Assembly (NCBI RefSeq): GCF_009807005.1
Contig: NZ_WUBR01000003.1
Location: forward strand, 62,001 to 126,000
Direction: 5' to 3'
From: Aurantiacibacter rhizosphaerae
GTDB lineage: Bacteria > Pseudomonadota > Alphaproteobacteria > Sphingomonadales > Sphingomonadaceae
Length of the DNA stretch: 64,000 bases
Of this stretch, positions 7,238 through 12,197 are shown in pieces (position 1 is the stretch's first letter; the number at the start of each line of letters is the position of its first letter). A program made the translations under genes and the position numbers. The notes below the pieces were generated by a model. The model did no database searches. It saw only the letters and a program-made list of their open reading frames with translations, and was not told where the DNA came from.

Positions 7238-8143
7238 ATGATGCGTATGAACGAAACCCGATCCGATACATTCTCCGACGAACTGCTCGGCTTTTCCATT
7301 CCGTCGCGCGATTCGCGCGGGCGCGCCGTAAGGCTTGGCCCCGTGGTGGAAGAGATTCTTGCCGCGCATGATTATCCCCCCGCGCTGAAACATGCCTTGG
7401 CAGAGGCGCTGGTTCTGGCCACGCTGATGGGCGGGCTGATGAAGGACGAAGGCGACCAGTTGACCATGCAGGCGCAGGGCGAGGGCGGCATCGTCAGCCT
7501 GCTGGTGTGCGATTACCGCGATGGCGCGATCCGCGGCTATATCGAGCATGACGAGGAGCAGATGGCGGCTGAGGGGGCTAACCCTTCGCTCGATGCGCTG
7601 TTCGGAAAGGCTCACCTCGCGATCACCTTCGACATCGCCAAGACGGGGAAGCGTTACCAAGGCATCGTACCGATGGAAGGCGATTCGCTATCGGCAGCGG
7701 TAGAAAGCTATTTTATGCAGAGTGAGCAGATCCCCACCCTGATCCGCACCGCCATCAGCTCCAGCAAGGGGCAAACCGTGGCGGCGGGCCTGCTGGTGCA
7801 GCACCTGCCCGAAGGAGAGGAAGGCCGTGAGCGCCTGCACGTAGAGCTTGATCATCCGGAGTGGGAGCATGTCTCCATCCTGGCTGACAGTCTGCGGCAT
7901 GAGGAGCTTGTCGAGCCGGGTCTGTCATTGGAAGATATCGTCTGGAGACTTTATCACGAGGAGGACAAGATCCTTGTCTCCCCGGGGGCGCAGCTTTCGA
8001 AGGGCTGCCGTTGCACCATCGAACATTTCGAAGAGGTTCTGGCGCGTTTTCCCAAGGAGGAACGCCGGGACATGGCCGATGATGAAGGGATCATTTTGGT
8101 CGACTGCGCATTCTGCTCGAAGGTTTTTCCAATCCAGGATTAA
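7238..8143 (+). CDS. hslO: Hsp33 redox-regulated chaperone
   Basis: The 301-residue protein is a redox-switched holdase. It carries the C-terminal zinc-binding cysteines as CXC (Cys257, Cys259, in GCRC) and CXXC (Cys290, Cys293, in DCAFC); their oxidation activates the chaperone in Hsp33 of E. coli. Three ATG codons (7238, 7241, 7247) are possible starts; the first has a GGGACGG ribosome site about 8 bp upstream. A longer frame back to 7184 only overlaps the end of argF. argF followed by hslO is, as I recall, a common order in sphingomonads. Confidence 0.93.
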   Translation: MMRMNETRSDTFSDELLGFSIPSRDSRGRAVRLGPVVEEILAAHDYPPALKHALAEALVLATLMGGLMKDEGDQLTMQAQGEGGIVSLLVCDYRDGAIRGYIEHDEEQMAAEGANPSLDALFGKAHLAITFDIAKTGKRYQGIVPMEGDSLSAAVESYFMQSEQIPTLIRTAISSSKGQTVAAGLLVQHLPEGEEGRERLHVELDHPEWEHVSILADSLRHEELVEPGLSLEDIVWRLYHEEDKILVSPGAQLSKGCRCTIEHFEEVLARFPKEERRDMADDEGIILVDCAFCSKVFPIQD

Positions 8144-8167
8144 CCATTCGTCGTACCTATAGTGCAA

Positions 8168-8196
8168 TTGGTCGTTCATGTTGGCCGTGCTATAAG
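8168..8196 (+). promoter_or_regulatory. Probable sigma-70-type promoter
   Basis: TTGGTC (8168-8173) and TATAAG (8191-8196) are exactly 17 bp apart, 24 bp before the GTG of the secreted-protein gene, with AGGAG between. It should drive that gene and perhaps queC. Confidence 0.55.
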
Positions 8197-8220
8197 CGAG
8201 CAAATAGGAGTCTAACCGTC

Positions 8221-8625
8221 GTGGCAGGTATCAAGGGAAAATTGGGTGTGTGGAGTGCGGCTGCGGCAGCTGTTTTTGCATTCTCACCAGTGTCCGCCCA
8301 AGCGCCAGAACTTGCGATGCTCGATAATTTGCAGCGCGGCGCATGGGAATTGCGCGTGCGCCCCGGAAACGCCACGCAGCGAATTTGCGTCCGCACCGGC
8401 CGCGAACTGATCCAGCTGCGCCATCGCCAGCCGTCCTGTGGCCGTTTCGTGGTGCAGGATGAATCGAATGAGGTGACAGTCCAATACACATGCCGTGGCA
8501 ATGGGTATGGCCGCACCACTATTCGCCGTGAGAGCCGCGATGTCGTGCAAATCCGCAGCCAGGGTATTCATGGGGGCTCGCCATTTTCGATCGAAGGCGA
8601 AGCGCGCCGCGTCGGCTCCTGCTGA
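8221..8625 (+). CDS. Secreted DUF3617-like small protein
   Basis: A 134-residue protein starting at GTG, 9 bp after AGGAG. It has a signal peptide (about 26 residues, ending VSAQA) and three further cysteines in a small extracytoplasmic domain (QRICV, PSCGRF, YTCRG) plus a terminal cysteine. The opening GAWELRVR and the R-x-C-V step resemble DUF3617 proteins, which are common in sphingomonads and have no known function. Family assignment is by pattern memory only. It stands alone between hslO and queC. Confidence 0.65.
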   Translation: MAGIKGKLGVWSAAAAAVFAFSPVSAQAPELAMLDNLQRGAWELRVRPGNATQRICVRTGRELIQLRHRQPSCGRFVVQDESNEVTVQYTCRGNGYGRTTIRRESRDVVQIRSQGIHGGSPFSIEGEARRVGSC

Positions 8626-8669
8626 TCGCGCCTCTTGCCCAATCGGGCATGACTGCCTAGCCAAATCTG

Positions 8670-9362
8670 ATGGATGATAATGGAAAGATCGCAGTCGTGC
8701 TGCTTTCGGGCGGGCTCGATTCGATGGTGACGAGCGCCATCGCACTGGAGCAGGGCTACCGCCTCAACGCGCTCACCATCGATTATGGCCAGCGCCATGT
8801 GCGTGAATTGCAATCGGCAGAGTTTATTGCGCAAAAACTGGGCGTGGAGCGGCATGTGCGGCTCCCGCTGGATCTCCGTCAGTTTGGCGCCTCCGCGCTG
8901 ACGGCGGATATCGACGTACCAAAGTCTGGCGTCGGCACAGATATCCCTGTCACCTACGTTCCCGCGCGCAATCTGCTGTTCCTGTCGTTGACAACGGCCT
9001 TTGCCGAGAGCGCGAGCGCGAGCGACATTTTCATCGGGGTCAATGCCCTGGATTATTCGGGATATCCCGACTGCCGGCCAGAATTCATCGCCAGCTTTGC
9101 CGAAACAGCTCGGCTGGGCACAAAGCAAGGGGTGGAAGGGCAAGCCTTTTGGATTCACGCGCCTCTTCAGCACATGACGAAGGCGGAAATTGCGCGAGAA
9201 TGTGCAAGGCTCGAGCTTGACCCGGCGTGGAGCTGGTCTTGCTATGATCCCACGCCGGATGGGCAGGCGTGCGGTTTATGCGATAGCTGCCGCCTGCGGC
9301 TGAAAGGCTTTGCTGAGGCTGATGTGAAGGACACGACTAACTACGCCAATAAACCCGAGTAG
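8670..9362 (+). CDS. queC: 7-cyano-7-deazaguanine synthase
   Basis: The 230-residue enzyme makes preQ0 from 7-carboxy-7-deazaguanine, ammonia and ATP, the last step before QueF in queuosine synthesis. The ATP pyrophosphatase P-loop SGGLDS (13-18) and the zinc-binding cysteines (Cys191, Cys201, Cys204, Cys207 in SWSC, ACGLCDSC) are present. No queD, queE or queF gene is adjacent, so the pathway genes are scattered. The ATG at 8670 places the P-loop at the usual distance from the N-terminus. Confidence 0.95.
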   Translation: MDDNGKIAVVLLSGGLDSMVTSAIALEQGYRLNALTIDYGQRHVRELQSAEFIAQKLGVERHVRLPLDLRQFGASALTADIDVPKSGVGTDIPVTYVPARNLLFLSLTTAFAESASASDIFIGVNALDYSGYPDCRPEFIASFAETARLGTKQGVEGQAFWIHAPLQHMTKAEIARECARLELDPAWSWSCYDPTPDGQACGLCDSCRLRLKGFAEADVKDTTNYANKPE

Positions 9363-9394
9363 TTAGCGCTCCTTACACGGAGCCATCCACAAAA

Positions 9395-9925
9395 TTAGCT
9401 TTGCGAGAAGACGCCGCAGGCTACGCGGCTTCCGGCATCGCCAGCAGGATCGGAGCGATAATCATCGGCGCCCTCGTGCACGACAAGAGCCGTGCCGTCC
9501 GCATCAAAAATCTCGGTCAACACCGTTGCGCGCGTCCCGCGAAGGGTCGTGCTAATGGTGCCAACGCCAGCTGAAGAGACTTCTGCATTGGGAAGATCAC
9601 CCAGGTGCGCGCCCTGAGGATTGAGGGTGCCGTGTTCATTGCCCATGGGGTTGAGGTGCCCGCCAGCGGACGTAAAATCGGTGGCGCTGCAATCGCCAGT
9701 GGTGTGCAGGTGTACGGCGTGTGTACCGGCAGGCATACCCTGCAGTGAAACGGATACCGTTACCTCGTCACCTTCGGAATACAGCATGGCAGAGCCAACA
9801 TTGTTACCGCTGCGATCCATCAGCATTGCAGATCCAAGCTCAGATCCTGTCTCTTCGTAGGCCGTGGCACAGCCGGAAGTGGCGAGCAGGGCGAGGGCGA
9901 CGAGGGGAAGGCTGCGATAGCGCAT
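9395..9925 (-). CDS. sodC: Cu/Zn superoxide dismutase, lipoprotein
   Basis: The 176-residue protein has a lipoprotein signal with lipobox around Cys19 (LLATSGC), so it is probably anchored in the periplasm. The copper/zinc ligands are visible: HLHTTGDC (His72, His74), GGHLNP (His90), NEHG (His98), and HEGADD further on. The disulfide pair would be Cys79 and Cys170. It converts superoxide to peroxide and oxygen and protects against external superoxide. It is convergent with queC (32 bp between stops). Confidence 0.92.
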   Translation of the reverse strand: MRYRSLPLVALALLATSGCATAYEETGSELGSAMLMDRSGNNVGSAMLYSEGDEVTVSVSLQGMPAGTHAVHLHTTGDCSATDFTSAGGHLNPMGNEHGTLNPQGAHLGDLPNAEVSSAGVGTISTTLRGTRATVLTEIFDADGTALVVHEGADDYRSDPAGDAGSRVACGVFSQS

Positions 9926-9982
9926 GATGGCTCCTTAAATTTGATCTCACCCTCACTACGCACACCTCCAAAGAAGGGTCCG

Positions 9983-10387
9983 TTATTCTGTGGCCAGGAT
10001 ACCAGCTGCCTTCAGTGCCTCCACGATCTCCCCGATTGCCGCGCGCGCCTCTGCATCCACCGTAGCACCTGCTACTGGCAGGTTGACGGCGGCAGGCACG
10101 ATCCATCCGCCGTTGTAGCGCGCAGTGCGGTTTGCCGACCGGTTGAATATCACCATGCCCTCAACCGGAGAGACAAACAGCCAGTTGCCACCTTGGCGGC
10201 AGGCGAATCGGCCCGCATTGCCAATCCATTCGCCGGTCGGCTGGCCACCGACGATCCAGCATTCGCCATCGGCTGGAGTGGCAGGGGGATTGTCGGCCAC
10301 TCCCTCTATCACGGGGTGTAGCAGGGCATCGATCAGTGCGAATGCCTCGTTCACCGTGAACTCTTTCTGCGCCTGTGCCGCACGCAT
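9983..10387 (-). pseudogene. DUF2793 phage/GTA-type protein, N-terminus lost by deletion
   Basis: The ATG at 10387 gives 134 residues beginning MRAAQAQKEFTVNEA, the signature normally found about 15 residues into DUF2793 proteins (usual form AAGQAQKE-x-T-x-NEAL). The rest, with ECWIVGG, TGEWIGNAG and GGWIVPA, is complete. DUF2793 proteins occur at the ends of GTA and prophage structural clusters. The missing start, and direct fusion out of frame to a cut terminase gene, show that this is the right end of a deletion. It may still be translated from the internal ATG, but its usual partners are absent. Confidence 0.75.
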
Positions 10388-10838
10388 AACCATGTTGCGG
10401 GCCGCGCAGCGATTCCGGTTCGCTGGCTGAGTACAATGTGGCCTGCGCGCCATTGGGCCAGGTGAGCCTGCGCAGAGAGGGTTCAAAATCCGGTGCTTCG
10501 GGATATTGGTGGCAGGCAATGATTCCGCTTTCTCCTTCCACCATGACGGCGCGCGCCTCCGCAATAGAGCGGGTTACCAACGCGATGCGGGCGTGCGGGT
10601 CTTCTTCTGCGATATGACGAACCCATTCGGCACCTGCCCGCGTCTTGCCGAAACCACGCCCAGCGCAGATCAGCCACAGGCGCCAGTCGCCGTTGGGCGG
10701 CATTTGTTCGGCACGGGCCCACAGGGGCCAGTGGCCTTCCAGCAGGTCTCTTTCATCGCCGCTCAGCTCTGAAAGGAAATCATAGCGTTCCGGATCGTCC
10801 AGCGCGGTGAGCGCGCGCCGGTTCTCAGTCCCGTTCAT
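10388..10838 (-). pseudogene. GTA/phage large terminase subunit, truncated after about 150 codons
   Basis: The first 150 codons are a clear terminase ATPase: WRLWLICAGRGFGKTRAGAEW carries the Walker A motif, and LYSASEPESLRGPQHGYA is the region leading to Walker B. At that point the match stops. The frame then runs on to 10161 with unrelated sequence that is the DUF2793 gene read in another frame. Walker B and the whole nuclease domain, together about two thirds of the protein, are gone. DNA packaging is therefore impossible. The start overlaps the small-terminase stop by 14 bp, the original coupled order. Confidence 0.85.
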
Positions 10839-11304
10839 TGGGAATGATCTCGATAACGCGATCCTCTTTCAGCAGGCGTTCGGCAGCGGCGCGGCGCTCG
10901 CGCATCCGGTCCAGCTTGGCATTCAGGCTGGCCAGAACGGCGGCCTTGTCTCGCTTGCCCTGGCGGGCCTTTTCCTTTGCCGCCGCCTCGCGATGTGCGG
11001 CCAGCAGCCTGAGGGCATTGGCGATATCGAACTTGGTATCGCCCGGCGGCGTGCCGAAACGCAGGCGCTGCAGCGTTTCCATCTCCAGGTGCTCATACCC
11101 CTCCAGCAGAGCGGCGCTCCACTGGGCGCGGAATTCCGGGCTCTCGCGCCGCCATTTATAGGCATAGGACGTCATCGCGCCCGATTTGCGCGCGGCCTCG
11201 GAAACATTGGAAGTCTCGGCCAGTGTTTCGAGGAAAATGAGCTTCCAGTTCTGGCTCAGGTTCTGACCTTTCTGGTCCTTTCGCGGTTTTACGCGTTTTG
11301 CCAT
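10825..11304 (-). CDS. GTA/phage small terminase-like protein
   Basis: This 159-residue protein opens with a basic tail, then a helix-turn-helix-like segment (NVSEAARKSGAMTSYAYKWR) followed by a long charged coiled region (about 100-150). This is the pattern of small terminase subunits at the head of alphaproteobacterial GTA clusters, and the large-terminase fragment directly downstream confirms it. The gene looks intact. With the large subunit truncated it can have no packaging role; retained DNA binding is conceivable but not shown. Confidence 0.75.
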   Translation of the reverse strand: MAKRVKPRKDQKGQNLSQNWKLIFLETLAETSNVSEAARKSGAMTSYAYKWRRESPEFRAQWSAALLEGYEHLEMETLQRLRFGTPPGDTKFDIANALRLLAAHREAAAKEKARQGKRDKAAVLASLNAKLDRMRERRAAAERLLKEDRVIEIIPNERD

Positions 11305-11350
11305 GTGACCCCACCCTTGCAGTTGCTTTGATCAGATCGGCTGCGGGCAC

Positions 11351-11420
11351 GAAAAAGGGCGGTTCCCCTGCGGGACCGCCCTGAAAACAGCTTGCTGCCG
11401 ACTCGCTTTATCGCGATGTT
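11351..11420 (-). ncRNA. Candidate small RNA or leader upstream of the terminase remnant
   Basis: On the minus strand a TTGACA box is followed 17 bp later by TAGAGA, then about 40 nt of sequence and a GC-rich hairpin ending in TTTTT. This could be a free small RNA of about 70 nt or an attenuated leader of the terminase genes, whose first ATG lies 46 bp further on. There is no open frame in it. The boundaries are estimates from promoter and terminator positions. Confidence 0.4.
11352..11382 (-). terminator. Terminator hairpin, minus strand
   Basis: Read on the minus strand, AGGGCGGT pairs with ACCGCCCT (8 bp, extended by three more pairs after a bulge), followed by five T residues. No annotated gene lies upstream on this strand, which is why a small RNA or leader is proposed. 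Confidence 0.65.
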
Positions 11421-11425
11421 CCTTT

Positions 11426-11454
11426 TCTCTAACCAAACAGTGTCACGATGTCAA
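11426..11454 (-). promoter_or_regulatory. Minus-strand promoter with consensus -35
   Basis: On the minus strand TTGACA (11449-11454) and TAGAGA (11426-11431) are 17 bp apart. The -35 box matches consensus fully and the -10 is moderate. It points toward the hairpin at 11352-11382 and the small terminase gene. Confidence 0.5.
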
Positions 11455-11540
11455 TGATAAAGTGCCATATGGGTTAGTTTGTAGGACTTGCCGGGCGTGC
11501 AAAGCTGCACTAAGCGGCGGACAGCAATTCAGGACCGGCC

Positions 11541-12197
11541 ATGCTTCGCGGATTATACAACTGGACTATGGCCAAGGCCGCGCATCCCCATGCGCAGTGG
11601 TGGCTAGCCTTCTTCTCCTTCATCGAATCAAGCTTCTTCCCCATCCCGCCGCATCCGCTGCTGGGACTGATGTGCCTGGCAGAGCCGAAGCGTGCGATCC
11701 GCTATGCCGCGATATGCACCGCGGCATCGGTGCTGGGCGGCCTGTTCGGCTATATGATCGGCTTCTTTTTGTACGAGGCGGTGGGCGAATGGCTAATCGG
11801 CGCGCTGGGCCTGACGGACAGTTTCCCGGCTGCGGCATGCTATATCCGCGAACAGGGCGCGATTGCCGTGTTCCTGGCGGCAGGCACGCCGATCCCGTTC
11901 AAGCTGATGACGATCACCGCCGGCTTTATCGAGATGAACCTCGTTACCTTCCTGATCGCCGCGATTGCCGGGCGCGCGCTTATCTTCATGGTGGTGGGCG
12001 TGCTGTTCCAGTTCTTCGGCGCACCGATCAAGGCCATTATTGACAAATATCTGGGCACGGTGACCACGATTTTCGTCGTGCTGGTGGTGGGCGGCTTCCT
12101 GGCGATCACGCAGCTTGGCGGCGGTCATGACGATACCGGCGCATCGGATGATCCATGTGCCAATGTCACTTCCATGGAAGATGTAAGGGCACAGTAA
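11541..12197 (+). CDS. DedA/VTT-domain (YqaA-like) membrane protein
   Basis: The 218-residue polytopic membrane protein fits the VTT/DedA (SNARE-associated) family. Markers are FFSFIESSFFPIPPHPLLG near residue 25 and the re-entrant-loop-type segment FLAAGTPIPFKLMTITAGF near residues 112-130, where DedA proteins carry conserved Pro and Gly. Family members move lipids such as undecaprenyl phosphate or affect proton-linked drug tolerance; some relatives accompany selenite or metal-resistance loci. It lies 27 bp upstream of arsC, so it may share that transcript. Confidence 0.8.
   Translation: MLRGLYNWTMAKAAHPHAQWWLAFFSFIESSFFPIPPHPLLGLMCLAEPKRAIRYAAICTAASVLGGLFGYMIGFFLYEAVGEWLIGALGLTDSFPAAACYIREQGAIAVFLAAGTPIPFKLMTITAGFIEMNLVTFLIAAIAGRALIFMVVGVLFQFFGAPIKAIIDKYLGTVTTIFVVLVVGGFLAITQLGGGHDDTGASDDPCANVTSMEDVRAQ

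Follow-up and report, generated by a model that had tools for sequence, protein, structure and literature searches.

According to the accessible part of PMC9836097, about half of the Sphingomonadales and two other orders have GTA genes, conserved to a varying extent. The part of PMC10883770 that is openly available names DUF2793 as a GTA tail fibre and discusses repeated loss of GTA production across the Alphaproteobacteria, which resembles what we describe here; the loss treated there proceeds via pseudogenes and a deletion bias, whereas a single repeated base-exact cut does not appear in that part. In the titles and abstract openings that were searched, a scope outside which subscription papers and preprints lay, no description of a base-exact GTA join was found.

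The locus analyzed here, from Aurantiacibacter rhizosphaerae, shares with RcGTA-type clusters the small terminase gene (TerS), the start of the large terminase gene (TerL) and the DUF2793 tail fibre, which mark both ends of the cluster, and a relative carries the whole cluster in the same place. It differs in that the genes between these ends are absent and that the genome contains no TerL C-terminus. Two further kinds of system invite comparison. The nifD element and skin each bring a recombinase and direct repeats with them, and the interrupted gene is restored. The GTA deletion resembles them in that a defined intragenic block is lost with single-base precision, but its join has no repeat and the joined TerL and DUF2793 frames are out of phase. 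Serine recombinases cut with a 2-bp stagger, and the large serine integrases described so far require an identical central dinucleotide at their two sites. The 2-bp stagger would fit the join, and a large serine recombinase with both typical domains (Resolvase, PF00239, and Recombinase, PF07508), which we call LSR-A, is enriched in genomes with the deletion. In contrast, the join sites lack a common central dinucleotide or site sequence, no recombinase gene lies beside the GTA locus, and LSR-A is a candidate enzyme.

The GTA remnant of Aurantiacibacter rhizosphaerae

The window, i.e. the whole 64-kb stretch of DNA that was analyzed, belongs to a genome of 3,418,029 bases in 6 contigs (G000), which was searched as a whole. 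All GTA features of the window lie on the minus strand. The open reading frame of TerS (10825..11304) matches the PHROG 4044 terminase small subunit (6.6e-10) and is 96% identical to that of G031, the nearest relative within the genus; the gene is intact, as originally proposed. It is followed by a TerL N-terminus of about 150 codons (10382..10838) with 93% identity to residues 1-152 of the G031 TerL, and the Terminase_6N match (E = 2.1e-10) covers residues 57-151 of the ORF 10161-10838. The TerL match stops after SLRGPQHGYA and another frame over the same bases reads AAQAQKE; the ORF in this frame (9983-10564) matches DUF2793 at 1.9e-24, so that both domain matches confirm what had been read from the letters. 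What remains of the DUF2793 tail-fibre gene (9983..10381) is in frame +1 relative to TerL, has no native start and is matched by residues 19-149 of the G031 gene at 65%. From the QH codons of TerL to the QAQKE codons of DUF2793 the junction comprises 16 bp (10376..10391), with GT at its positions 9-10 (10382..10383) as in the TerL of G031.

G031 contains a full TerL and the whole GTA cluster at the place where G000 has the remnant, with the same flanking genes on both sides. Using blastn, the window gave two alignments with G031, 10381-12122 and 7869-10381, which meet at the single base 10381. The first aligns to positions 3100-1358 of the G031 locus (L062) at 85%, and the identity of the other flank is 73%. 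The segment L062 3101-16477, about 13.4 kb, is missing from G000. Read against G031, TerL letters reach 10382, the G at 10381 fits both genes, and DUF letters begin at 10380. The original prediction was correct in seeing a deletion join, but its placement at 10385-10392 has to be shifted, because the flanks meet at 10381. The flanks carry a Cu/Zn superoxide dismutase gene (9395..9925, minus strand; Sod_Cu 9.3e-36), which is also found beside the intact G031 cluster (L062 16905-17462), and on the TerS side a VTT-domain gene (11541..12197, plus strand; VTT_dom 4.7e-08) in DNA common to the G031 flank. The superoxide dismutase gene, which adjoins the tail-fibre gene, also matches a PHROG phage family (7.6e-33).

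A comparison of the G031 cluster proteins with the 64-kb window revealed matches only for TerS, the TerL N-terminus and DUF2793, apart from flanking genes; portal, protease, capsid and tail are absent there. The search of the whole genome yielded one DUF2793 and one TerL N-terminus, and no match to the TerL C-terminus. A functional RcGTA-type GTA needs a complete large terminase, and TerL ends here after about 150 codons. The locus is a remnant of a GTA cluster, and the deletion of the block between TerL and DUF2793 at the original site, as first suggested, is demonstrated by the intact cluster of G031, which is syntenic on both sides.

Recurrence of the exact join

When 84,980 species were scanned for the pattern, with any gap from 1 to 31 bases permitted, 47 stretches matched, 44 of them with a gap of 16 and two with a gap of 17; the third stretch that deviates from 16 (L101, gap 24) was discarded as a chance match. 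The names among the matches include Qipengyuania, Erythrobacter, Porphyrobacter, Croceicoccus, Tsuneonella, Croceibacterium and Novosphingobium, with isolates as well as MAGs. In the genus of the window the query matched 33 of 40 genomes, two of which (G018 and G023) matched only beyond TerL; the join is present in 5 of the remaining 31 with a TerL N-terminus (G000, G028, G004, G024 and G006), and G018, in which a further deletion extends to TerS, still has the 16-bp join. Searched at the protein level, 309 of 397 genomes in the family have a TerL N-terminus. Among the matches listed, 24 of the 29 candidates with a short frame contain the join (with a gap of 16 bp in 22 of them and of 17 in 2), and the 16-bp register thus also occurs in loci that were found outside the pattern. 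Open-frame length was rejected as a sign of an intact TerL, because G265 and G397 have long frames and yet carry the join. The junction was found in none of 30 further loci from 29 genomes, mostly of other genera. In the distinct deleted loci of the tree set described below, the gap is exactly 16 bp in 52 of 54. Many species have lost a block of about 13 kb, one end of which is fixed to the base in TerL, behind the GC of the QHSHA-W alanine codon, and the other in DUF2793, immediately before AGQAQKE.

The TerL C-terminus is absent in 28 of the 31 deleted genomes searched, whereas it is found in each of the three intact controls (G031, G107 and G185). In the other three deleted genomes the search hit a different terminase elsewhere (G111, 52%; G004, 40%; G175, 26%). 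The GTA block is gone rather than relocated. The terminases of G111 (L220) and G004 (L221) are second, distinct enzymes moderately similar to the C-terminus of GTA TerL.

GTA deletions with different ends also exist (L075, L164, L172, L205, L216 and L071), and therefore not all loss is of the 16-bp kind. Around position 1948 of L164 (G140), TerL is broken near the same base and joined to other DNA, which is followed by later GTA genes. Around position 8287 of L216 the C-terminus of the major capsid protein is fused in frame to DUF2793. This fusion first seemed to mark the DUF site as a general breakpoint, but it proved to be ordinary microhomology at a shared GGGCAG.

An assembly error at the join had been named as a possible objection. 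This is unlikely, since the exact join occurs in many independent assemblies and three of four checked contigs agree with the assembler names: the base totals of G365:C1, G024:C9 and G397:C11 equal those in the assembler's own contig names, with real letters at the ends, and G006:C10 is 34 bases below its name.

Probable independent events and the bases at the join

The tree of the TerL N-terminus comprised 114 rows (54 deleted, 53 intact, 7 unclear) with few columns and many open forks; L127 and L105, which contain stops, and loci with fewer than 125 codons upstream were left out. Deleted and intact states change at least 30 times on this tree, compared with 35.9 times for shuffled labels, and at least 9 changes are forced by strongly supported branches. 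As few as 30 changes occurred in 11 of 500 shuffles, and deleted loci are therefore slightly clustered. Closely related pairs that differ in state are L124/L194 (93% of TerL nucleotides), G118/G185 (88%) and L114/L202 (90%). On both sides of the join each lineage has its own letters, and lineage-specific TerL letters extend to the join itself, e.g. HGYA in G000 and G031 and HHIA in L102 and L201. The best pair consists of a deleted MAG contig (L096) and an intact contig from IMG/VR (handles L322 and L459); the two are identical in 260 of 260 nt to the left and 399 of 399 nt to the right of the join. Their TerL identity ends after base 8 and the DUF identity starts at base 9, without any shared base, so intact and deleted alleles coexist within one species. 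TerL searches for further same-species pairs in IMG/VR returned only L096/L322; elsewhere the best identity was 78% among the matches listed. Neither the fused junction nor a circle junction had a match in viral contigs (0 each).

Tree mixing and own-lineage flanks indicate that the same base-exact junction arose in independent events, as expected of site-specific recombination: the join is more probably recurrent than one old event. The original view of a scar private to one lineage is not supported, because the same join is found in many species, mixed with intact loci. Relatives with the same short arrangement, which had been named as a counter-argument, do exist, but the arrangement recurs at the tips beside intact relatives and is not ancestral.

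The bases at the join were compared using 25 intact loci; 12 of 37 had to be dropped as unfit for the pattern. In the register of the 16-bp join the mean longest run shared by both sites is 2.24 and the identity 24%, which is within the range of 79 other registers. The TerL and DUF sites of these loci contain no common core sequence and no repeat. Among the deleted loci, 52 have the 16-bp gap; their letter frequencies agree with those of intact TerL at positions 1-8 and with those of intact DUF2793 at positions 12-16. The pair at positions 9-10 is TC (18), CT (15), TT (9), AC (4), GT (3), AT (2) or TA (1). Assigned to a parent, 18 are TerL pairs (CT/GT), 22 are DUF pairs (TC/AC), 11 fit both (TT/AT) and one (TA) fits neither, so that this dinucleotide is of the TerL type in some species and of the DUF type in others. 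CC or GC, expected from a crossover between both bases, occurred in 0 of 52. From these letters, positions 9-10 look like the pair of one parent and would fit a 2-bp crossover overlap, the tally being an indirect one. The type differs even between close relatives (L089 TC and L114 TT; L171 TC and L178 CT). The two intact sites lack the identical central dinucleotide that the att pair of a large serine integrase needs: TerL has CT/GT/AT/TT, DUF mostly TC/TT/AC/AT. At the left site SH is more common in deleted (51/54) than in intact loci (40/53; p = 0.007), which could mean a site preference or a short inherited tract.

A possible donor tract was searched for by comparing pairs of loci at equal distance. 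Near the join, deleted pairs are no more alike than intact pairs, except in the first 200 nt of DUF2793 for the two bins of lowest TerL similarity (0.532 and 0.541 versus 0.456 and 0.513). In the bins of higher similarity this difference is gone or reversed, and in the 60 nt left of the join there is none. Apart from this small excess, no donor tract common to the deleted loci was found near the join. For the TerL N-terminus, with synonymous sites partly saturated, five deleted groups gave dN/dS ratios of 0.09-0.21 and five intact groups ratios of 0.10-0.17. A dN/dS comparison had been recommended for the small terminase; carried out on the TerL N-terminus of the deleted groups, it gave no sign of decay, and this part of TerL is under purifying selection as in the intact groups, which would be expected of young deletions.

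Origin of the deletion and the candidate recombinase

Recurrence at the same base without matching DNA at the ends points to a precise cut-and-join mechanism and not to random decay. We assign recurrent site-specific excision a probability of roughly 0.55, and a serine-recombinase mechanism would be its most likely form. Cuts staggered by 2 bases would be made at both sites, the ends exchanged and joined again, and the mismatched middle pair at positions 9-10 would be settled by replication. A mobile large serine recombinase may be the agent, or may be carried by the elements that bring it. The resulting cell would be unable to make GTA particles and would keep TerS and a TerL fragment, presumably without its Walker B residues.

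The main rival is a single ancient deletion that has been kept within or between species as an alternative allele of GTA non-producers, its flanks overwritten by homologous recombination with intact alleles. It would account for one register everywhere without any enzyme and for both alleles in one species, the accessible part of PMC10883770 discusses such loss and cheater dynamics, and the SH enrichment as well as the DUF2793 excess in the low-similarity bins could be remains of an inherited tract. That excess, however, vanishes or reverses at higher similarity and is missing left of the join, own-lineage letters extend to the exact join on both sides, and close relatives differ in positions 9-10. 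Some junctions have TerL-type dinucleotides there; these pairs lie outside the sequence common to TerL and a DUF-type junction, and overwriting should therefore not reach them. We regard this explanation as doubtful. A repeated mobile element that removed the GTA block, lay between TerL and DUF2793 and later left exactly is still less probable. In two genomes, G178 (L472/L473) and G270 (L474/L475), the TerL half and the DUF half are on separate contigs whose ends coincide exactly with the join (8+8 letters with no shared base, and 11+6 with one shared G, respectively), and neither genome has a TerL C-terminus. Such splits would result from an element between the halves, but also from a mixture of intact and deleted forms in the sample; no element was seen between both halves in the loci read, and the TerL and DUF sites have no common target sequence.

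It is very improbable that selection acts on the short locus as a unit in its own right, consisting of TerS, the TerL N-terminus and DUF2793 expressed by frameshift. The low dN/dS of the deleted groups and a DUF frame of 128-132 codons past the join in most complete loci are in line with this idea; the intact groups show the same dN/dS, and therefore no extra constraint is needed. Moreover, the TerL frame runs on for a very variable length (19 to 323 codons), some TerL halves are broken by stops (L105, L127), and the position of a possible ATG of DUF2793 in the 51 SH loci reads CAT in 28 and CAC in 23, so that there is no common start codon. The least probable explanation, and one we give hardly any weight, is that illegitimate deletion of the ordinary, microhomology-based kind happened to recur at conserved motifs. 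According to the accessible part of PMC10883770, loss of the GTA is common among the Alphaproteobacteria, and nearby GTA deletions such as the capsid-DUF2793 fusion of L216 look ordinary. The 16-bp join does not: shared letters are not in excess in its register, the same-strain pair L096 and L322/L459 has no shared base, and the gap was 16 in 44 of 47 stretches although 1-31 was permitted. The microhomology that had been suggested from the GC-rich letters at the join can be abandoned on these grounds.

Returning to site-specific excision, genes with a resolvase domain are present in 28 of the 40 genomes of the genus. LSR-A of G000 (L498; G000:C1:700291-702087) has 599 aa with the Resolvase and Recombinase domains. 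Relatives were defined by at least 58% identity; other serine recombinases reach at most 57%, nearly all below 50%, and the single 57% match is a piece of 54 residues in G018. LSR-A was detected in 13 of 34 deleted and 0 of 37 intact genomes. With two intact genomes added that were later found to be positive, the ratio is 13/34 to 2/40 (Fisher 4.5e-4; within-genus permutation 4e-5, with four genomes of different genera in one stratum), and outside the discovery genus it is 9/28 to 2/29 (p = 0.021). In the 397-genome sample 14 genomes contain LSR-A, comprising 11 deleted, 2 intact (G167 and G294) and 1 without TerL (G302). LSR-A does not accompany every deletion: 21 of the 34 deleted genomes are without it, where it may have been lost later, and G167 and G294 have it together with an intact GTA. 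Serine recombinases of every sort are more numerous in deleted genomes (mean 3.5 versus 1.7 matches, at a cut of E < 1e-70 chosen after the list was seen), and the link with LSR-A may therefore only reflect genomes rich in mobile elements. Attachment sites resembling TerL or DUF beside the LSR-A genes gave weak matches, none of them convincing. The neighborhoods in 13 genomes show no conserved neighbors, with a tyrosine integrase in 6/13 and a nuclease-like gene in 5/13, and a common cargo was missing in most loci. As excision enzyme, LSR-A is a candidate lead. A copy of LSR-A is also carried by the 172-kb plasmid pWH01K of an Erythrobacteraceae strain (CP115967.1 95630-97426; L570; fits G167), next to TniQ/TniB/Mu-type transposition genes, an AAA ATPase, a nucleotide cyclase and a thermonuclease gene.

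A more far-reaching and tentative proposal, which we think rather unlikely as a whole, is that mobile large serine recombinases spreading in the Erythrobacteraceae and their Novosphingobium relatives recognize the TerL and tail-fibre coding sites and excise the GTA block, as a GTA off-switch or anti-GTA system. Single strains would then undergo exact erasure while selection keeps the GTA in the lineage.

The original prediction was right about the deletion, but it interpreted a repeated, base-exact event as a private scar left by microhomology. The usual interpretation of GTA loss is drift, or takeover by cheaters through random decay. If a deletion recurs at one base from species to species, and exists alongside the intact form within a single species, a defined molecular act would be what turns GTA production off. 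It would also represent a site-specific deletion between two sites without a common core sequence. Why GTAs survive when non-producers ought to prevail could then be tested directly in culturable, harmless aquatic bacteria.
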